NCBI GenBank assembly: GCA_017849435.1
Contig: JAFIGY010000012.1
Location: 124,001 to 188,000, forward strand
Direction: 5' to 3'
DNA length: 64,000 nt
From: Chitinophaga niabensis
GTDB lineage: Bacteria; Bacteroidota; Bacteroidia; Chitinophagales; Chitinophagaceae
Within the stretch, counting starts at the first letter, position 1; each line of letters opens with the position of its first letter. The translations under genes were made by a program, and so were the position numbers. The notes beneath the pieces were generated by a model that had not been told where the DNA came from, made no database searches, and worked only from the letters and a program-made list of their open reading frames with translations. This document shows positions 1,989 through 9,727 of the stretch, in pieces.

Positions 1989-2019
1989 TTTGAGAAATTG
2001 AAATCCTGATTTATTTTTG
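1989..2019 (+). promoter_or_regulatory. Promoter of the aromatic amino acid operon
   Basis: TTTG at 1989-1992, a 19-base spacer and TATTTTTG at 2012-2019 match the Bacteroidota consensus TTTG-N19-TAnnTTTG exactly. The start of transcription should be near 2025. The RNA then begins with a CA-rich, unstructured stretch leading to the first leader peptide at 2048. Confidence 0.8.
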
Positions 2020-2047
2020 TTCTATCAACAACAAGCAAACAACAGCA

Positions 2048-2107
2048 ATGCAACAGCGAGCCTTTGGTTACTTTTATGGTTTTTACTTTTTCTGGTACCA
2101 GGAATAG
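2048..2107 (+). CDS. Aromatic operon leader peptide 1 (Phe/Tyr/Trp-rich)
   Basis: A 19-residue frame, MQQRAFGYFYGFYFFWYQE, in which 10 residues are aromatic: five Phe, four Tyr and one Trp, concentrated in residues 6-17. It starts about 23 bases after the predicted transcription start and ends with TAG at 2105-2107. The stop codon overlaps the first strand of an antiterminator helix, and a terminator hairpin follows at 2150-2171. This is the arrangement of a translating-ribosome attenuator such as trpL or pheL: shortage of charged tRNA-Phe, -Tyr or -Trp stalls the ribosome on the aromatic run and lets transcription continue. The peptide itself is expected to have no other function. It was found by reading the codons; no expression evidence is available. 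Confidence 0.88.
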   Translation: MQQRAFGYFYGFYFFWYQE

Positions 2108-2180
2108 GAGGTTCGTTTTGCTAGCAGTTTAAAAATATCACTAACAAAAGGGCCTCCTGAAAAGGGGGCCCTTCCTTTTC
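2105..2180 (+). terminator. Attenuator 1: antiterminator and terminator of the aromatic leader
   Basis: Terminator: GGGCCTCC at 2150-2157 pairs with GGGGGCCC at 2164-2171 (8 bp, one G-U pair), with the loop TGAAAA and a pyrimidine-rich tail TTCCTTTTC. The tail is weaker than a pure T-run. Antiterminator: bases 2105-2114 can pair with 2150-2159 over 10 bp, with AGGAGG/CCTCCT as the core plus G-U pairs. This removes the whole left arm of the terminator. The antiterminator's first strand begins at the stop codon of leader peptide 1, so a ribosome that finishes the peptide covers it and termination results. A ribosome stalled earlier leaves it free. The two helices are mutually exclusive by sequence. 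Confidence 0.85.
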
Positions 2181-2202
2181 AAATGAAATCTGATCAACAA
2201 AT

Positions 2203-2280
2203 ATGTCACAAAAGAGCTTTAGCCTGTACTTTTTTTACTTTTTCTTTTATCGTAAAGGAACAGGGACTCTTTTGCAGTAA
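2203..2280 (+). CDS. Aromatic operon leader peptide 2 (Phe/Tyr-rich)
   Basis: A second leader frame of 25 residues begins 31 bases after the first terminator stem. Residues 6-16 read FSLYFFYFFFY: overall six Phe and three Tyr, and no Trp. The last nine residues, RKGTGTLLQ, are non-aromatic and their codons overlap the first strand of the second antiterminator. The TAA stop is at 2278-2280 and a terminator stem follows 26 bases later. The composition fits sensing of charged tRNA-Phe and tRNA-Tyr, the end products of the downstream operon. Confidence comes from the repeated logic of leader, stop and paired hairpins, not from length. Confidence 0.87.
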   Translation: MSQKSFSLYFFYFFFYRKGTGTLLQ

Positions 2281-2333
2281 CAGTTTATCATAAACGAACT
2301 AAAAAAGGGTCCCGGCTCACGGGGCCCTTTTTT
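2263..2333 (+). terminator. Attenuator 2: antiterminator and terminator of the aromatic leader
   Basis: Terminator: GGGTCCCG at 2307-2314 pairs with CGGGGCCC at 2320-2327 (8 bp, one G-U pair), loop GCTCA, followed by six T residues. Antiterminator: GGGACTCTTTT at 2263-2273 pairs with AAAAGGGTCCC at 2303-2313 over 11 bp, with a single U-G pair, and takes up seven of the eight left-arm bases of the terminator. Its first strand lies inside the codons for residues 21-24 of leader peptide 2. A ribosome stalled on the aromatic codons at about 2227-2250 leaves this strand free, while one that reaches the stop masks it. The prephenate dehydratase start lies 60 bases beyond the T-run. Confidence 0.88.
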
Positions 2334-2370
2334 AATTACGGATGAAAAAATAAAACGTAGTTCACCATCA

Positions 2371-2393
2371 TTCTTAATTCGTAATTGATTCAT
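2371..2393 (+). repeat. Dispersed ATTCGTAATTGA element, copy 1
   Basis: The AT-rich stretch contains TTCTTAATTCGTAATTGATT and ends directly at the ATG of the prephenate dehydratase gene. Close relatives of it occur at 25092, 25266 and 58841. Three of the four copies sit immediately before a start codon. Confidence 0.6.
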
Positions 2394-3221
2394 ATGCATA
2401 TCGCGATTCAAGGTTTTGAAGGAAGTTTTCACCAGGTGGCTGCCCGGAATTATTTCGGCAAACAGATCAGTATCGAGGCTTGTGCCTCTTTCCCTGAACT
2501 GGTGCGGAAGGTAAAGGCAGGTGGTACGGTAGATGCAGGTCTGATGGCCATCGAAAATTCCATTGCCGGCAGCATTCTGCCCAATTACAGTCTGCTGAAG
2601 AACTCTGGTCTGCATGTGATCGGAGAAGTATACTTACAGATCAACCAGCACCTGATGGTGTTGCCGGGGCAGACCATCGAAGATATCCGGGAAGTGCATT
2701 CCCATCCGATGGCGCTCCTGCAATGCACGGATTTCCTGGAGCAGTACCCCCATATCAAACTGGTGGAAACAGAAGATACGGCCCTCAGTGCAAAACATGT
2801 GCGCCAGAAGAAACTGAAGGCAACGGCGGCGATTGCGGGGAAGCTGGCGGCGGAGATATTCGAGCTGGATATCATCGCTCCCAACATTCACACCGCCAAG
2901 AACAATTACACCCGTTTCCTGGCTGTTTCCCGTAATGGTATGAAAACGCCGGAAGATGCCAACAAATCTTCCGTATATTTCCAGACATCCAACGAGAAGG
3001 GAAGCCTGGCCAGGGTACTCACTCAGATCGCTGCGGAAGGGATCAACCTGAGCAAGATCCAGAGTTTTCCCATCCCGGCAAAGGAATGGAATTATTATTT
3101 CCACGCGGATATGGAATTTGAATCACCGGATCATTTCCACCGCGTGCTGGAAAAGATATCCCCGCTCACCGAACACCTGACGGTGTTGGGCATTTACAGG
3201 AAAGGCAAAACGCACTCTTGA
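2394..3221 (+). CDS. pheA: Prephenate dehydratase
   Basis: A 275-residue monofunctional enzyme that converts prephenate to phenylpyruvate, the Phe branch of aromatic synthesis. The dehydratase domain covers about residues 1-180, with MAIENSIAGS near 51-60 and the signature NNYTRFLAVS near 170-179. A regulatory ACT domain follows at about 193-268 (GSLARVL...INLSKIQSFP). The QSFP stretch stands where the Phe-binding ESRP motif lies in other dehydratases, so feedback by Phe is likely but the site is altered. I chose ATG 2394; the TTG at 2385 in the same frame would add only three residues. It is the first structural gene after the double attenuator, 17 bases before the aminotransferase gene. Confidence 0.95.
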   Translation: MHIAIQGFEGSFHQVAARNYFGKQISIEACASFPELVRKVKAGGTVDAGLMAIENSIAGSILPNYSLLKNSGLHVIGEVYLQINQHLMVLPGQTIEDIREVHSHPMALLQCTDFLEQYPHIKLVETEDTALSAKHVRQKKLKATAAIAGKLAAEIFELDIIAPNIHTAKNNYTRFLAVSRNGMKTPEDANKSSVYFQTSNEKGSLARVLTQIAAEGINLSKIQSFPIPAKEWNYYFHADMEFESPDHFHRVLEKISPLTEHLTVLGIYRKGKTHS

Positions 3222-3238
3222 TATAATATTTTAAAACG

Positions 3239-4417
3239 ATGCAAGCACAGGTAGCCAAAAGATTGCAACATACAGAGGAGTACTACTTCTCCCGCAAGCT
3301 CCGCGAGATCGACGAGATGAACAAAGCGGGCGCGAATGTGATCAACCTGGGGATCGGGAGCCCTGACCTTCCGCCCCACCCGTCCGTAACGGCAGCCCTC
3401 ACCGAGCATGCCGCACGGCCTGACACACACGCCTACCAGGGCTACAAAGGCATCCCCGCCCTCCGGCAGGCGATCGCTGACTGGTACAAACGCTTCTATC
3501 ATGTACCCCTGCATCCCGATACGGAAGTGCTGCCGCTCATCGGTTCCAAGGAAGGTATCATGCACATCTGCATGACCTTTCTACAGGAAGGGGACGAGGC
3601 CCTCATCCCGGATCCGGGCTACCCTACCTACCGCTCTGCCGTACAGCTCAGCGGAGCCACACCTGTTACCTATTCCCTCGAAGCAGGCAATAACTGGCAG
3701 CCGAACCTCGCCGCCCTGGAGCAGCGCGACCTGAGCAAAGTGAAGCTTATGTGGGTGAACTACCCGCACATGCCCACCGGCGCCCAGGCAAAAGCCGGTA
3801 CGTTCGAAGCGCTGGTAGCCTTTGCGAAAAAACATAACATCCTGCTTTGCCACGATAATCCCTACAGCTTCATCCTCAACGATCATCCCGCCAGCCTCAT
3901 GGCTACGCCGGGAGTGATGGAGGTAGCGCTGGAACTGAACTCGCTGAGCAAGAGCGGCAATATGGCCGGATGGCGTGTAGGCATGCTCGTTGGTAAGGCG
4001 GCTTTCCTGGACGAAGTACTGCGCTTCAAAAGCAATATGGACTCCGGCATGTTCCAGCCTGTACAAATGGCAGCCGTGGCGGCTTTGAACCTCGGCCCGG
4101 AATGGTATGCGGAACTGAACACCATCTACAGCGGCCGGCGCAGGAAAGTGTTCGAACTGCTGAACCTGCTCGGATGCAGCTACGATCCTGCACAGGTAGG
4201 CATGTTCGTGTGGGCGAAGATACCCGAAGGGTACGCGGACGGGTTTGCGGTGAGTGACGAAGTGTTGCAGAAAGCCCATGTGTTCATCACACCGGGCAGC
4301 ATCTTCGGTACTAACGGTAACGGATATATCAGAGTGAGCCTTTGCCGGGATGAAAAGGTATTTGCAGAAGCGATCGCCCGGGTAAAACAATCCATTCAGC
4401 ATCCCCAAACTGTTTAA
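3239..4417 (+). CDS. Class I/II PLP-dependent aminotransferase, probably aromatic
   Basis: A 392-residue fold-type I aminotransferase. The PLP lysine is Lys238 in LNSLSKSGNMAGWR. NYPHMPTGA at 174-182 and DNPYSF near 206 are the usual cofactor-binding motifs, and IGSPDLPPHPSV at 39-50 is typical of the aspartate/LL-diaminopimelate aminotransferase-like group. Between the dehydratase gene (17 bases upstream) and the prephenate dehydrogenase gene (4 bases downstream), the likely role is transamination of phenylpyruvate and 4-hydroxyphenylpyruvate to Phe and Tyr. Sequence alone cannot exclude another substrate, such as a diaminopimelate precursor; the operon context decides for aromatic. Start ATG 3239 gives the expected N-terminus. 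Confidence 0.88.
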   Translation: MQAQVAKRLQHTEEYYFSRKLREIDEMNKAGANVINLGIGSPDLPPHPSVTAALTEHAARPDTHAYQGYKGIPALRQAIADWYKRFYHVPLHPDTEVLPLIGSKEGIMHICMTFLQEGDEALIPDPGYPTYRSAVQLSGATPVTYSLEAGNNWQPNLAALEQRDLSKVKLMWVNYPHMPTGAQAKAGTFEALVAFAKKHNILLCHDNPYSFILNDHPASLMATPGVMEVALELNSLSKSGNMAGWRVGMLVGKAAFLDEVLRFKSNMDSGMFQPVQMAAVAALNLGPEWYAELNTIYSGRRRKVFELLNLLGCSYDPAQVGMFVWAKIPEGYADGFAVSDEVLQKAHVFITPGSIFGTNGNGYIRVSLCRDEKVFAEAIARVKQSIQHPQTV

Positions 4418-4421
4418 TCAT

Positions 4422-5264
4422 ATGATAGTAACCGTAGTAGGCGTTGGATTGATAGGTGGCTCACTGGCCATCAGCCTCAAAGAAAAAGGCGTGGCTAACC
4501 GGATCATCGGCGTGGATCACAATGAGGAGAACCTGCGGAAGGCAAAGGAATTGAAGATCATTGATGAAGGTTCCAGCCTCGAGGACGCCATGACCCGCAG
4601 CGAGCTCATCATACTGGCCATCCCGGTGGATGCCGTGCTGAAGACGCTGCCCTCCATTCTGGACAAGGTGGAGAATGGCCGCGTGATCATGGATGTAGGA
4701 TCCACCAAGCAAAAAATATTGCAGCTCGTTGCCGGTCATCCCAAAAGAGGCCGTTTTGTGGCCGCCCACCCGATGGCCGGCACGGAATACTCCGGGCCGG
4801 AAGCTGCCATACAGAACCTCTTTTCGCAAAAGACCATGGTGCTCTGTGATGTGAAGAACAGTGACGAGGACGCGCTGGAAATGGTGGAGGGTATTGTGGA
4901 TCAACTGAACATGCGCACGGTATACATGAATGCGGAAGAACATGATCTGCATACGGCATATGTTTCACACATCTCGCACATCACTTCTTTCGCCCTGGCG
5001 CTTACAGTGTTGAAAAAGGAAAAAGAACAGGGCCGCATCTTTGAACTGGCCAGCGGTGGTTTTGAATCTACCGTGCGACTGGCCAAAAGCTCGCCGGATA
5101 CCTGGGTGCCCATCTTTCGGGATAACCGCAACAATGTGCTGGACGTACTGGATGAACACATCCATCAACTGCAACAGATGCGTAAATTACTGGAAGACGA
5201 GGATTACGAAACATTCTACAAACTGATCCAAAAAAGTAACAAGATCAGGAAGATCCTGAAATAA
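4422..5264 (+). CDS. tyrA: Prephenate dehydrogenase
   Basis: A 280-residue NAD(P)-dependent enzyme that oxidatively decarboxylates prephenate to 4-hydroxyphenylpyruvate, the Tyr branch. The Rossmann motif GVGLIG is at 7-12, an acidic residue follows in VDHNEENL, DVGSTK is at 91-96 and AHPMAGTEYSG is at 115-125, all characteristic of TyrA. The second half is helical (dimerisation domain, with THISHIT-like histidines). There is no fused chorismate mutase or ACT domain; chorismate mutase is supplied by the next gene. It begins 4 bases after the aminotransferase stop. Confidence 0.95.
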   Translation: MIVTVVGVGLIGGSLAISLKEKGVANRIIGVDHNEENLRKAKELKIIDEGSSLEDAMTRSELIILAIPVDAVLKTLPSILDKVENGRVIMDVGSTKQKILQLVAGHPKRGRFVAAHPMAGTEYSGPEAAIQNLFSQKTMVLCDVKNSDEDALEMVEGIVDQLNMRTVYMNAEEHDLHTAYVSHISHITSFALALTVLKKEKEQGRIFELASGGFESTVRLAKSSPDTWVPIFRDNRNNVLDVLDEHIHQLQQMRKLLEDEDYETFYKLIQKSNKIRKILK

Positions 5265-5299
5265 ACCACAATTCGTTAACTTAATACGTCACAAATACA

Positions 5300-6388
5300 A
5301 TGGAACAGATCTTAGCAAAAACAAAATTCGCCGATCCGGCTTCTGACAAAAAGCCGCTCATCATCTCAGGCCCCTGCTCCGCAGAAACGGAAGAGCAGGT
5401 GTTGGCTACGGCCCTGGCCCTCGCAAAAACAGGAAAGGTGGACGTGCTTCGCGCCGGCATCTGGAAACCCCGTACCCGTCCCGGTTCTTTTGAAGGCATT
5501 GGTGCAAAAGGGTTACCCTGGCTGCAGAAAGCCAAAGAACTCACCGGCATGCCCACTACCGTGGAAGTAGCTACTGCCAAGCAGGTGGAAGATGCGCTGC
5601 ATTTTGGGGTAGACATCCTCTGGATTGGCGCACGTACTACCGTGAACCCTTTCTCCGTGCAGGATGTGGCAGATGCCCTGAAAGGCGTGAAAATACCGGT
5701 GCTGATCAAGAACCCGATCAATCCTGATCTGGAGCTCTGGATTGGCGCAGTGGAACGCATCCAGAAAGCAGGCATCGAGAAAGTAGGTCTTATCCACCGC
5801 GGCTTCTCCAGCTACGGCAATACGGAATACCGCAACGCGCCGATGTGGCACCTGGCCATCGAGCTGAAACGCCGTCATCCTGAATTACCGATGATCTGCG
5901 ATCCGAGCCATATCAGCGGTCGTCGTGACATCCTGCTGAACGTTGCACAGGAAGCGATTGACCTCGATTACGATGGTCTGATGCTCGAAACGCATGTTGA
6001 TCCGGACAATGCCTGGAGCGATGCCAAACAACAGATCACACCGGAAAAATTTGGCGAACTGCTTGATCATATCACCTGGAGGCACGAGCGTACGGATCAG
6101 AAGGAATTCAATACCGCACTGGAAAAACTCCGTAACCAGATCAACGGTATCGACGACGAAATCCTGCAACTGCTGGGCAATCGCATGAAGATCGCCGAAA
6201 AGATCGGTCAATATAAAAAAGACAATAACATCACTATCCTGCAAACCAACCGCTGGAACGAGATACTGGACAGAGGCATCAAAGCGGGCGAGAAACTGGG
6301 GCTCACCAAGGATTTCATCCTGAAATACTTTGATGCGGTGCACCTGGAGTCCATCAACCGTCAGAACAAAGTGATGAATAACGAATAA
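5300..6388 (+). CDS. aroF: Bifunctional DAHP synthase / chorismate mutase (type II)
   Basis: This 362-residue fusion carries out the first shikimate step and the chorismate-to-prephenate branch step. Residues about 1-262 form a type I-beta DAHP synthase, with GPCSAET at 24-30, RAGIWKPRT at 51-59 and the phosphate/metal motif DPSHISGRRD at 201-210. Residues about 272-358 form an AroQ-type chorismate mutase helical domain (LRNQINGIDDEILQLLGNRMK..KKD). The C-terminal fusion order is known from Bacteroidota (for example Porphyromonas), where the mutase domain also mediates feedback by prephenate. It lies 35 bases after tyrA and 18 bases before aroB, within the attenuated operon. The symbol is conventional; no single standard name exists for the fusion. 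Confidence 0.95.
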   Translation: MEQILAKTKFADPASDKKPLIISGPCSAETEEQVLATALALAKTGKVDVLRAGIWKPRTRPGSFEGIGAKGLPWLQKAKELTGMPTTVEVATAKQVEDALHFGVDILWIGARTTVNPFSVQDVADALKGVKIPVLIKNPINPDLELWIGAVERIQKAGIEKVGLIHRGFSSYGNTEYRNAPMWHLAIELKRRHPELPMICDPSHISGRRDILLNVAQEAIDLDYDGLMLETHVDPDNAWSDAKQQITPEKFGELLDHITWRHERTDQKEFNTALEKLRNQINGIDDEILQLLGNRMKIAEKIGQYKKDNNITILQTNRWNEILDRGIKAGEKLGLTKDFILKYFDAVHLESINRQNKVMNNE

Positions 6389-6406
6389 GCCATTTTTTCA
6401 GTACAT

Positions 6407-7432
6407 ATGATCACACAAATGCACCAGTTCCAGCAGGCCAGCACCCGGTATTACCTCGGTGAAAAACTGGCGAACCTTGGCCACTACGTAAATAAAGACC
6501 GCACCATCCTCCTGGTGGATGAGAATGTGGACAAGCATTACGCAGATCAGTTACAGGGCTGGAAAAAACTGGTAGTGCCGGATGGGGAAGAGCACAAGAA
6601 CATGGAGGTGATGGAACAGATCATCGACGGACTGATAGAGCTGGAGGCAGACCGCAAAACCATGCTGGTAGGTATTGGTGGCGGTATGTTGACGGATATC
6701 ACCGGCTTTGCGGCCAGCATTTACATGCGTGGTATTCCTTTCGGTTTTGTGCCGACTACGTTGCTGGCACAGGTAGACGCTTCCATCGGCGGCAAGAACG
6801 GCGTGAGCCACGGTATGCACAAGAATATGCTGGGCACCATCCGTCAGCCCGAATTCATCCTCTTCGATTACGCCCTTCCGCTGACCATGCCGGAAAGCGA
6901 GTGGTGTAACGGGTTTGCAGAAATCATCAAATATGCCTGCATTTACGATGCAAGCTTGTTTGCATACCTGGAGGAGAATAAAGAAAAAGCGCTGGCGCAG
7001 GATGTAAGCGTATTGCAATATCTCGTGGAGCGTTCTGTGGATATCAAAACGAAATTCGTACTGGAAGATGAATTTGAAAGCGGTGTACGGCGATGGCTGA
7101 ATTTCGGCCATACGCTGGGGCATGCAGTGGAAAAGCTGGAGAACATTGCACACGGGAAAGCGGTGGCCATCGGAATGGTAGCAGCTGCTAAGATCTCCGA
7201 AAAAATAATCAAGCTGCCATCCGAACAAACCAACCGCCTGATCCGTTTGATCAATGATTACCATTTGCCGGTGACCATGACGTCAGACAGGAATGAAGTG
7301 TTTAACATTTTCAGGCTGGACAAAAAGCGCGAAAGGGACAGTATCCATTTCGTGCTGCTGACAGAGATCGGTAAAGCTACCACGCAACCCATCCCGCTGG
7401 ATGAGCTGAAACAAATTTTACAAGAATTGTGA
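6407..7432 (+). CDS. aroB: 3-dehydroquinate synthase
   Basis: A 341-residue enzyme that cyclises DAHP to 3-dehydroquinate using NAD and a divalent metal. GGGMLTDITGF at 91-101 is the NAD-binding motif, PTTLLAQVDASIGGKNG at 116-132 holds active-site Lys and Asn residues, NGFAEIIKYA near 168 contains the metal-binding Glu, and NFGHTLGHA supplies the metal-binding His. Length is close to the normal 340-370. It starts at ATG 6407, and its stop overlaps a GTG in the frame of the next gene, so translation of the two is probably coupled. Confidence 0.96.
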   Translation: MITQMHQFQQASTRYYLGEKLANLGHYVNKDRTILLVDENVDKHYADQLQGWKKLVVPDGEEHKNMEVMEQIIDGLIELEADRKTMLVGIGGGMLTDITGFAASIYMRGIPFGFVPTTLLAQVDASIGGKNGVSHGMHKNMLGTIRQPEFILFDYALPLTMPESEWCNGFAEIIKYACIYDASLFAYLEENKEKALAQDVSVLQYLVERSVDIKTKFVLEDEFESGVRRWLNFGHTLGHAVEKLENIAHGKAVAIGMVAAAKISEKIIKLPSEQTNRLIRLINDYHLPVTMTSDRNEVFNIFRLDKKRERDSIHFVLLTEIGKATTQPIPLDELKQILQEL

Positions 7433-7443
7433 ATTCAATAAAG

Positions 7444-8727
7444 ATGCAAGTTATCGTATCACCTGCTGTCATCAGAGGCTCCGTTACGGCCAATCCCTCC
7501 AAGAGCGCGATGCAACGTGCGGTAGCGGCGGCTTTGATGGCAAAGGGGACCACTATCATCCATAATCCCGGCCTGAGCAATGACTGTATCGCTGCGCTCG
7601 AAGTGGCAGAGAACCTTGGCGCAATGGTAAAACGGGAGGGTAATGACATCCTCATCACCGGTAAGGGCGTGCAGCCTTTTTACGATGAGATCAACTGCGG
7701 AGAATCCGGCTTGGGTATCCGCATGTTCACACCCATCGCCGCACTGGCCGAACAACCGATCACGATCAATGGTCATGGGAGCCTGGTAACACGCCCCATG
7801 CATTTCTTCGAGGAAGTACTGCCGCAACTGGGGGTACAGATCAAGAGTCAGGGTGGTAAACTGCCGCTGGAGATCAAAGGTCCCCTGCAGGCCAGGAACA
7901 TCACGATAGACGGTTCACTTTCCTCCCAATTCCTGACCGGCCTGCTCATGGCTTTTGGCGCGGTGGCAGAAAAAGCGTCCATCACGGTAAAGGACCTGAA
8001 AAGCAAACCTTATATCGCCCTTACGTTACAGCTCATGGAACTTTTCGGGGTGAAAGTAAGGCAGGAGAATTTTGAAGTGTTCCATTTCGAAAAGAAACAG
8101 GCGTACAAACCGGTGGAGTATACCGTGGAAGGCGACTGGAGCGGAGCGGCTTTTCTGCTTGTAGCGGCAGCCATTGCGGGTAAAGCGGAAGTGCATCATC
8201 TGAACACGCATTCCGCACAGTCGGATAAAGCGATCATGGAAGCGCTGGAAAAGGCCGGTGCTGAAATATTGCCTGGTATGTTCACGATCATCGTGGGCAA
8301 GAGCGATCTGAAGGCGTTTGAAATGGACGCTACGGATTGCCCTGACCTGTTCCCGCCATTGGTAGCGCTTGCCGCCAACTGTAAAGGGGTTACGAAGATC
8401 AAAGGCGTAAGCCGCCTGGCGCATAAGGAAAGCGACCGCGGTATTACCCTGCAGCAGGAGTTTGGAAAAATGGGGATCCGTATTGAACTGGATGGTGATG
8501 AGATGCGGATACATGGCGGAACTGGCATCAAAGGTACCGAAGTGTATTCCCACAACGATCACCGCATTGCGATGGCTTGTGCAGTAGCGGCTTTGACGGC
8601 AGACGGACCGGTAACTATTGAAAATGCCGAAGCGATCAACAAGTCCTACCCCGAATTTTACGACCACCTGGAGCAACTGGGCGGTAAGGTAGAACGGATC
8701 GGTCTGGCACATTCATCAGAAAAATAA
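7444..8727 (+). CDS. aroA: 3-phosphoshikimate 1-carboxyvinyltransferase (EPSP synthase)
   Basis: A 427-residue enzyme that joins phosphoenolpyruvate and shikimate-3-phosphate. The N-terminal NPSKSAMQR motif at 17-25 has the catalytic Lys20 and Arg25. Further motifs are GSLVTRPM, the substrate-binding SSQFLTGLLMAFG, and NDHRIAMACAVAAL near the C-terminus. I chose ATG 7444, which gives the usual short lead into the first strand. A GTG at 7429 in the same frame overlaps the aroB stop and could instead start a protein five residues longer. The gene is 4 bases from aroC. Confidence 0.95.
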   Translation: MQVIVSPAVIRGSVTANPSKSAMQRAVAAALMAKGTTIIHNPGLSNDCIAALEVAENLGAMVKREGNDILITGKGVQPFYDEINCGESGLGIRMFTPIAALAEQPITINGHGSLVTRPMHFFEEVLPQLGVQIKSQGGKLPLEIKGPLQARNITIDGSLSSQFLTGLLMAFGAVAEKASITVKDLKSKPYIALTLQLMELFGVKVRQENFEVFHFEKKQAYKPVEYTVEGDWSGAAFLLVAAAIAGKAEVHHLNTHSAQSDKAIMEALEKAGAEILPGMFTIIVGKSDLKAFEMDATDCPDLFPPLVALAANCKGVTKIKGVSRLAHKESDRGITLQQEFGKMGIRIELDGDEMRIHGGTGIKGTEVYSHNDHRIAMACAVAALTADGPVTIENAEAINKSYPEFYDHLEQLGGKVERIGLAHSSEK

Positions 8728-8731
8728 CAGT

Positions 8732-9727
8732 ATGAACAGTTTTGGGAGAATATTCAGGGTCAATGTTTTTGGGGAATCGCATGGAGAAAGTGTAGGCGTG
8801 AATATCGACGGGGTGCCGGCGGGCATTCCGTTGAAGCAGGAAGATTTTCTGCCGGACCTGGAACGCCGGAAAGCCGGTGCTAAAGGGACTACGCCCCGCA
8901 AGGAAGAAGACCTGCCTTTCCTGAAATCCGGTGTGTTCAACGATCATACCACCGGTGCGCCCATCACGATCTTTTTTGAGAACAACAATACCCGCAGTGC
9001 GGACTATGCTAAGCTCCGCGAATTCCCCCGCCCCGGGCATGCCGATTTTGTAGCCACGCAAAAGTTCGGCGGGTTTGAAGATTACCGCGGCGGCGGCCAC
9101 TTCAGCGGCCGTTTGACGCTCAATCTCGTAGCGGCGGGCGTGATCGCGAAAAAGATATTGGGGGATAAGATACAGGTGAAAGCCTCGCTCAAAGAAGTGG
9201 GTGGTTATGCTGATCCTGAAGAAGGGCTGGCAGCCGCTATCGCCGCGAAAGATTCTGTAGGCGGTATTGTAGAATGTACGGTAGATGGATTGCCGATCGG
9301 ATTGGGAGAACCTTTCTTTGATTCCGTGGAATCCAATATCGCGCACGCTGCCTTTGCCATCCCGGCTATTAAAGGCGTTGAGTTCGGCGCCGGTTTTGCC
9401 GCCGCAAAAATGAAAGGACTCGAACACAACGATCCGATCATCGACGCCAGCGGAAAAACCGCTACCAATAACGCCGGCGGGGTAGTAGGCGGCATCACCA
9501 ACGGGAACCAGCTGGTGTTCCGTGTGGCGGTGAAACCTACATCCAGCACGCCTAAAGAGCAACAAACATTGAATGTGGCGAGCGGGAAAGTGGAAACATT
9601 TTCTGTGAAAGGTCGCCATGACCTTTGTATAGCCCTGCGTGTACCGGTAGTGCTGGAAGCTATTACTGCCATGGTATTGGCCGATTTCATGCTGCTGGAA
9701 ATGAGGGCACCGAGGGTGTGGAAGTAG
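8732..9727 (+). CDS. aroC: Chorismate synthase
   Basis: A 331-residue FMN-dependent enzyme for the last common step, EPSP to chorismate. FGESHGESVG at 13-22 is the family signature. Other conserved stretches are RRKAGAKGTTPRKEED, RSADY..PRPGHADF, DYRGGGHFSGRLT and a late NAGGVVGGITNG. It is slightly shorter than the usual 350-390 residues because the C-terminus ends soon after the HDLCIALR helix. It is the last gene of the operon, with a strong terminator 29 bases later. aroE, aroK and the dehydroquinase gene are not in this operon. Confidence 0.96.
   Translation: MNSFGRIFRVNVFGESHGESVGVNIDGVPAGIPLKQEDFLPDLERRKAGAKGTTPRKEEDLPFLKSGVFNDHTTGAPITIFFENNNTRSADYAKLREFPRPGHADFVATQKFGGFEDYRGGGHFSGRLTLNLVAAGVIAKKILGDKIQVKASLKEVGGYADPEEGLAAAIAAKDSVGGIVECTVDGLPIGLGEPFFDSVESNIAHAAFAIPAIKGVEFGAGFAAAKMKGLEHNDPIIDASGKTATNNAGGVVGGITNGNQLVFRVAVKPTSSTPKEQQTLNVASGKVETFSVKGRHDLCIALRVPVVLEAITAMVLADFMLLEMRAPRVWK

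Follow-up and report, generated by a model that had tools for sequence, protein, structure and literature searches.

Two predicted leader-peptide attenuators in series upstream of pheA in Chitinophaga and other Bacteroidota

Introduction

Several systems have been described in which two regulatory gates follow one another on a single RNA. In the Salmonella mgtCBR leader, as summarized by its authors (PMC3641672), two short open reading frames (ORFs) each have an attenuator on a single leader RNA, and the pheA leader reported here is built in the same way. The signals in that summary are high ATP and low proline, which act additively, and the authors consider the mgtCBR stem-loops to be unlike intrinsic terminators, whereas here largely the same amino acids would be read twice, at two terminators of the intrinsic type. 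The mefA/msrD double attenuator, in the outline given in PMC10314930, has a macrolide antibiotic as inducer and is not part of an amino acid biosynthesis operon. Two switches in series are also known from tandem riboswitches and T-boxes, but in the overviews of PMC12452182 and PMC7583486 it is the RNA that binds the ligand or tRNA, whereas here a translating ribosome would be the sensor. A further likeness is the rimP leader of several Gammaproteobacteria, which has a tandem second terminator upstream with a potential antiterminator; the passage of PMC2965389 that presents this terminator describes no leader peptide for it.

Outside the Proteobacteria and Actinobacteria, the leader-peptide systems counted in 2010 in the relevant text of PMC2965389 were only ermC and that paper's own find in Firmicutes. 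Among Bacteroidetes, the Bacteroid-trp motif (RF01692) is listed in PMC2864571 as a candidate cis-regulatory RNA, by its name upstream of trp genes, and long 5' UTRs of Bacteroides thetaiotaomicron are noted in PMC7366714 to contain short ORFs reminiscent of leader peptides. Among the titles and abstracts listed for the open literature, which leaves most subscription papers outside, none concerned pheA attenuation in Bacteroidota or serial Phe leaders, and the same listed matches included no doubled leader attenuator that has two intrinsic terminators and reads the same amino acids twice. A 2010 survey by Lopatovskaya may already include single phe attenuators from Bacteroidetes. Tandem attenuators are already on record (mgtCBR, msrD); in the arrangement described here both leaders would serve largely the same amino acids.

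Judged from our folding models, each unit should work like a classical Phe attenuator. With Phe_leader (RF01859) the units have in common a Phe-rich leader peptide, an antiterminator and an intrinsic terminator before a phe operon; they differ from it in using Tyr as well as Phe codons, in standing two in series and in having antiterminators of differing sequence. The leader 1 and leader 2 regions scored 34.7 and 29.5 bits to Phe_leader (part of the leader region gave 23.5 bits on its reverse strand), and since both units lie below the gathering cut-off of 55 we do not file them under RF01859.

Results and Discussion

Two leader-terminator units lie between one promoter motif and pheA

The window, the whole stretch of DNA that was analysed, comprises 64,000 nucleotides of a Chitinophaga niabensis contig (JAFIGY010000012.1, assembly GCA_017849435.1). 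Its pheA operon is a run of seven genes at 2394-9727, assigned by their Pfam domains:

2394..3221, plus strand, pheA, prephenate dehydratase (PF00800, 1.6e-56)
3239..4417, plus strand, class I/II aminotransferase (PF00155)
4422..5264, plus strand, tyrA, prephenate dehydrogenase (PF02153, PF20463)
5300..6388, plus strand, DAHP synthase-chorismate mutase fusion (PF00793, PF01817)
6407..7432, plus strand, aroB, 3-dehydroquinate synthase (PF01761, PF24621)
7429..8727, plus strand, aroA, EPSP synthase (PF00275)
8732..9727, plus strand, aroC, chorismate synthase (PF01264)

Upstream of the operon lies a small lipoprotein-like gene (1588-1803) with its own terminator (1837-1859); the region 1733-1865 gives a weak Rfam Trp_leader match (28.3 bits against a cut-off of 41) that is probably due to chance. 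Between the promoter motif at 1989-2019 and pheA at 2394 we predict two complete leader-peptide attenuators, with the following parts:

1989..2019, plus strand, promoter-like pair of the Bacteroidota type, TTTG at 1989-1992 and TATTTTTG at 2012-2019 (TAnnTTTG), by sequence motif
2048..2107, plus strand, leader peptide 1, MQQRAFGYFYGFYFFWYQE (ATG at 2048, stop codon ending at 2107), an ORF with a counterpart in 78/79 Chitinophaga genomes
2090..2103, plus strand, small hairpin TTCTG(GTAC)CAGGA, which holds the Trp codon 2093-2095; 5/5 pairs in 78/78
2106..2114, plus strand, segment 2 of unit 1 (AGGAGGTTC), antiterminator strand overlapping the leader 1 stop codon; 9-bp helix with 2150-2158, with covarying positions
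2148..2180, plus strand, terminator 1, by fold; stem 2148-2173, whose 5' arm 2150-2158 is used by the antiterminator, and a T-rich tail
2203..2280, plus strand, leader peptide 2, MSQKSFSLYFFYFFFYRKGTGTLLQ, an ORF without Trp (ATG at 2203, stop codon ending at 2280)
2263..2272, plus strand, segment 2 of unit 2 (GGGACTCTTT), antiterminator strand; 10-bp helix with 2304-2313, with covarying positions
2300..2338, plus strand, terminator 2, by fold; stem 2300-2334, whose arm 2304-2313 is used by the antiterminator, and a T-run

Each unit thus consists of an ORF dense in aromatic codons (Phe, Tyr or Trp at 10 of 19 residues in leader 1 and 9 of 25 in leader 2 of the window), an intrinsic terminator recognized from fold and T-run only, and an antiterminator that shares the 5' arm of the terminator. 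The stem of terminator 1 folds at -21.4 kcal/mol (z -3.4) and that of terminator 2 at -24.6 kcal/mol (z -7.0). The tail of terminator 1 is interrupted in the window (CTTCCTTTTC), which counts against an attenuator at this position. No Rfam match at gathering score lies within the window, and so none to a known aptamer of the kind that would mark a tandem riboswitch. In tandems of the mgtCBR type the two gates answer different signals; here the two codon sets overlap and only Trp differs.

The promoter consensus of the Bacteroidota type is TTG-N17-23-TAnnTTTG. In a motif scan of the Chitinophaga loci the full motif was present 5' of leader 1 in 73/78 and 5' of leader 2 in 0/78. The -7 box alone precedes leader 1 in 74/78 and leader 2 in a single locus (L098, 1/78); the four loci without a -7 box 5' of leader 1 (L066, L068, L098 and L100) are ones in which our script chose a longer ORF start. 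A promoter serving leader 2 alone was therefore rejected, and with no full motif before leader 2 the gates would be serial rather than parallel; the end of stem 1 and the leader 2 ATG are separated by a median of 24 nt. The sequence-only reading had placed two serial attenuators behind one promoter and had argued that their read-through probabilities should multiply, a proposal that a promoter before leader 2 would have undone, and on both points our scan bears it out.

The aromatic codon runs of both leaders, and a T-run hairpin 3' of each, are kept in 78/78 Chitinophaga. These hairpins argue against the idea that the terminators go unused and the leaders act on pheA translation or RNA stability. 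The end of terminator 2, 63 nt before pheA in the window, is only about 26 nt away in several congeners (L003 and L004, for example), as such an effect might call for, but masking of the pheA start by terminator 1, which ends some 220 nt upstream of it, is unlikely. We regard this explanation as very improbable.

The doublet recurs in the Bacteroidota

To count such units by script, a unit was taken to be an ORF, 6-45 codons long and with five or more Phe, Tyr or Trp in ten, plus a T-run hairpin of -9 kcal/mol or lower no more than 150 nt downstream, and the 500 nt upstream of pheA were searched. PheA was found in 79/79 Chitinophaga genomes, 103/147 of a family draw, 58/197 of a class draw, 93/120 genomes of family f48 and 97/198 of an order draw; genomes without a match to the query fell outside the survey. 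Upstream regions were taken for 79/79 of the genus, 80/100 of the family matches outside the genus, 53/93 of f48, the complete set of 30 that the order draw gave for family f2, and some of the remaining matches; together these are 303 distinct loci. From kinship and named matches, f2 would be Saprospiraceae and f48 Hymenobacteraceae, and we use these names below.

The script called two units at 128 of the 303 loci, one at 150 and none at 25. Thus 278/303 have at least one unit, suggesting that pheA is under leader-peptide attenuation in much of the sampled Bacteroidota. On the reverse strand two units were called at 0/303 loci and one at 11, and dinucleotide-shuffled sequences gave two units in 0/606 and one in 15. 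Two of the script's tandems (L159 and L162) were rejected by eye, and one locus counted as a single unit (L235) resembles a tandem by eye. The 126 accepted tandems comprise 78/79 Chitinophaga, 36/53 Hymenobacteraceae, 11/30 Saprospiraceae and one locus of family f36 (L352); the sole Chitinophaga miss (L025) is explained by a contig end that leaves only 111 bases upstream. The 80 loci from other genera of the Chitinophagaceae have one unit in 77 cases and none in 2, the last being the rejected L159. A further search with a Hymenobacter-like PheA gave, among the best 80 named loci of the matches listed, two units at 16 and one at 64, with the script picking an ORF in the wrong frame at some of them; the 16 are all 11 Chitinophaga and 5 Hymenobacter among these best 80 listed. 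An origin of the tandem within Chitinophaga alone was dropped once the wider samples had shown tandems in other families, and, as to the earlier impression that serial attenuators are rare, in this part of the Bacteroidota they are recurrent.

Each unit has its own predicted antiterminator

Antiterminator helices were chosen as the best duplex in each genome, a procedure that replaced column-wise covariation, as the position of segment 2 differs by one base from group to group. In Chitinophaga the mean energy of a unit's own helix was -14.1 kcal/mol for unit 1 and -18.0 kcal/mol for unit 2; with the segments shuffled the values were -6.1 and -7.4. Pairing within a unit is better than pairing across units in 71/78 genomes for unit 1 and 77/78 for unit 2, so the gates look insulated from one another. 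In only 63/78 (unit 1) and 53/78 (unit 2) is the own helix better than the mean obtained with the arms of other congeners. Both helices have compensatory pair types across the genus (arm position 6 of unit 1, for example, is G-C in 41, A-T in 24 and C-G in 3), counts that lean towards pairing since the helices were taken as best duplexes. RNAalifold, applied to whole elements, recovered the terminator stems and the small hairpin of unit 1 and no antiterminator.

Outside Chitinophaga the unit 1 helix of Hymenobacteraceae is weaker (-11.1 against -8.5 shuffled), and at the one-unit loci of that family the values are -9.4 and -8.7, with the own helix better in 2/7. Own pairing exceeds cross-unit pairing in 29/36 and 27/36 Hymenobacteraceae for the two units, and in 7/11 and 7/11 Saprospiraceae.

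The pairing data also bear on whether a single gate does the work in the cell, the other being a relic or a minor element. The one-unit state of 77/80 other Chitinophagaceae loci and the seven Hymenobacter loci that have only a unit like that of leader 1 would suit this explanation; however, leader and terminator of both units are kept in all 78 congeners with usable sequence, and compensated pair changes occur in both antiterminators. A lone working gate in Chitinophaga is therefore improbable.

Codon placement and a modelled stalled ribosome

The probability that the antiterminator forms was modelled with the ribosome footprint masked and only the RNA downstream of it free to fold, and was averaged over the 78 Chitinophaga. 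For leader 1 this probability is 0.84-0.85 at the Trp codon and upstream of it, and then 0.73, 0.41, 0.09 and 0.04 towards the stop codon; for leader 2 it is 0.87 at codon -10, the end of the aromatic run, and then 0.69, 0.42 and 0.19. Across the usable units (395 of 402), the end of the permissive zone tracks the last aromatic codon with a median offset of 1 codon (r 0.69) and a mean absolute deviation of 1.5, where the shuffled minimum was 3.7. The permissive zone takes in 116/123 Trp codons and 3417/3507 Phe and Tyr codons, against 3180/5382 others; part of this correlation arises because T-rich aromatic codons cannot form a G-rich segment 2. In this model, codon placement in both leaders fits a stalled ribosome that frees the antiterminator.

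Control-codon placement is clear in each unit when only downstream RNA may pair and less clear when upstream pairing is allowed. With RNA 5' of the ribosome included, the values at the stop codon were 0.46 (unit 1) and 0.42 (unit 2), and in the absence of a ribosome upstream pairing of segment 3 persists at 0.82 and 0.87, so equilibrium folding alone leaves default termination unexplained. A candidate protecting 1:2 hairpin is seen in the full-length fold of unit 1; truncated RNA favours upstream pairing of segment 3.

We propose the following course of events. RNA polymerase would start near 2025 and transcribe leader 1. A shortage of charged tRNA-Phe or tRNA-Tyr would stall a ribosome in the aromatic codon run; segment 2 would then pair with the 5' arm of the first terminator, and polymerase would continue. 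With no shortage the ribosome would reach the stop codon that overlaps segment 2, and transcription would end near 2175. Polymerase that has passed terminator 1 would meet the same decision again at leader 2, with its own antiterminator, and the outcome there would be an RNA end near 2335 or entry into pheA. The ends suggested in the sequence-only reading, about 2175 and 2333, agree with the terminator folds. We infer ribosome stalling, termination and read-through at both gates and a physiological gain, and give a probability of about 0.8 to there being two ribosome-mediated transcription attenuators in series on one transcript.

Since both gates would read mainly the supply of Phe and Tyr, their leaks should multiply, and a deeper off state with a wider range is our best reading of the main gain from the second gate. 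A sharper response had also been predicted. When leaks of 0.02-0.2 were assumed in a toy model, two gates squared the range but gave an apparent Hill slope of only 1.09-1.18, which does not bear out the predicted sharpness. Serial attenuators that read the same amino acids offer a natural way to ask what is gained from a second lock, be it leak suppression, range or timing, and related genomes with one-unit and two-unit forms of pheA make this question testable.

A Trp codon and a hairpin in leader 1

As had been noted from the window, Trp belongs to the first leader and not to the second: it is present in leader 1 of 77/78 Chitinophaga and in leader 2 of 0/78, and in the footprint model its codon permits antitermination. 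It had been suggested on this ground that the gates sense different pools, gate 1 Phe, Tyr and Trp and gate 2 Phe and Tyr, so that shortages of Trp and of Phe/Tyr would be combined in an AND-type logic. The fully permissive modelled position of the Trp codon (as for 116/123 Trp codons over all usable units) and its near-invariance speak for this idea, as does the first base of the hairpin loop, which is needed for Trp and not for pairing and is G in 77/78. The codon set of gate 2, however, lies within that of gate 1, and polymerase should stop at terminator 2 when only Trp is short; a late Trp codon in leader 1 can in principle, by the footprint model, open gate 1 and no other. Moreover, first leaders of the Hymenobacteraceae tandems have Trp in 0/36, the window's genome has a dedicated Trp leader with adjacent Trp codons before trpE, and the Trp codon of leader 1 sits inside a conserved hairpin. 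Sensing of different pools is therefore unlikely, and AND logic between them is not supported for gates of which one set is a subset of the other. Among the Saprospiraceae tandems Trp occurs in 4/11 first and 5/11 second leaders.

The hairpin itself (TTCTG-loop-CAG(A/G)A, with CGGAA in 3) has all five pairs, G-U allowed, in 78/78. The Phe codon before Trp is TTC in 78/78, compared with 56/312 of the other Phe codons of leader 1, and in L030 (genome G010), the sole congener without Trp in leader 1, Cys (TGT) stands in its place with the hairpin intact. It may be, then, that the hairpin makes polymerase pause, giving the ribosome time to catch up, and that Trp is a by-product. The congeners are related, so the fixation of the hairpin may be inherited, the loop G is conserved too (77/78), and a role in pausing is speculation; we consider this explanation quite possible, at a little under even odds. 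Selection on the RNA and selection on Trp cannot be told apart here, and L030 is a natural test case for the two.

One-unit and two-unit relatives

The leaders of one-unit loci allow a comparison with each member of the pair. In other Chitinophagaceae their median length is 28 residues, compared with 26 for leader 2 and 19 for leader 1, and a median of 7 codons (quartiles 3 and 12) follows the last aromatic codon, compared with 8 in leader 2 and 2 in leader 1; by these measures they appear closer to leader 2. The seven one-unit Hymenobacter leaders have 4 codons after the last aromatic one, where the two-unit relatives have 3 (leader 1) and 10 (leader 2). These seven loci (L216, L218-L221, L353 and L354) have a peptide like leader 1, for example MFSNRYFFGFYYFTPPA. 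The two members of the pair thus seem to have been lost separately, with other Chitinophagaceae keeping a form more like leader 2 and some Hymenobacter a form like leader 1.

A quick tree of 120 PheA proteins, 109 of them with a unit state, has many weak forks and long branches. The fewest changes of state on it are 10 over the 109 rows, and from these sequences it is likely that the one- or two-unit state has changed more than once. The Hymenobacter PheA proteins (L161, L163, L194-L222 and L253-L257) group with those of Chitinophagaceae with support of 99, and genera g217, g218 and g220 of Hymenobacter's own family have PheA only 35-47% identical to that of Hymenobacter; this placement and this identity hint at gene transfer, perhaps together with the doublet. 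A broader outline, which we offer tentatively as somewhat more apt to be revised than kept, is that several Bacteroidota lineages use a doubled pheA attenuator as a two-lock device with separate antiterminators, that it has been gained or lost on more than one occasion with its members lost separately, and that in Chitinophaga the first lock also reads Trp, so that Trp shortage would prime the path without opening it.

Other leaders in the genome of the window

Neither the trpE nor the pheA regions searched matched RF01692 at an E value of 0.5 or better. About 90 nt before the trpE open frame (L193, minus strand) there is a single Trp leader, MQKNFTYKHWWHAQGLSAV, followed by strong hairpins, and upstream of hisG (L393, minus strand) a single His leader, MIINVHTHHHHTYPTGRQEML, with a terminator of -17 kcal/mol; in neither case do the 400 nt searched contain a second ORF of this type, and both are of the ordinary single-leader kind. 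Two other Phe/Tyr runs in the genome (L191 and L192) were rejected, as neither showed a Phe/Tyr leader with a terminator; L192 has an ORF across the run but lies within a gene. In the 400 nt upstream of ilvD and of the Phe-tRNA synthetase gene no leader was seen; about 180 nt upstream of the ilvD open frame (L394, G000:C5) there is a strong T-run hairpin of -26 kcal/mol.
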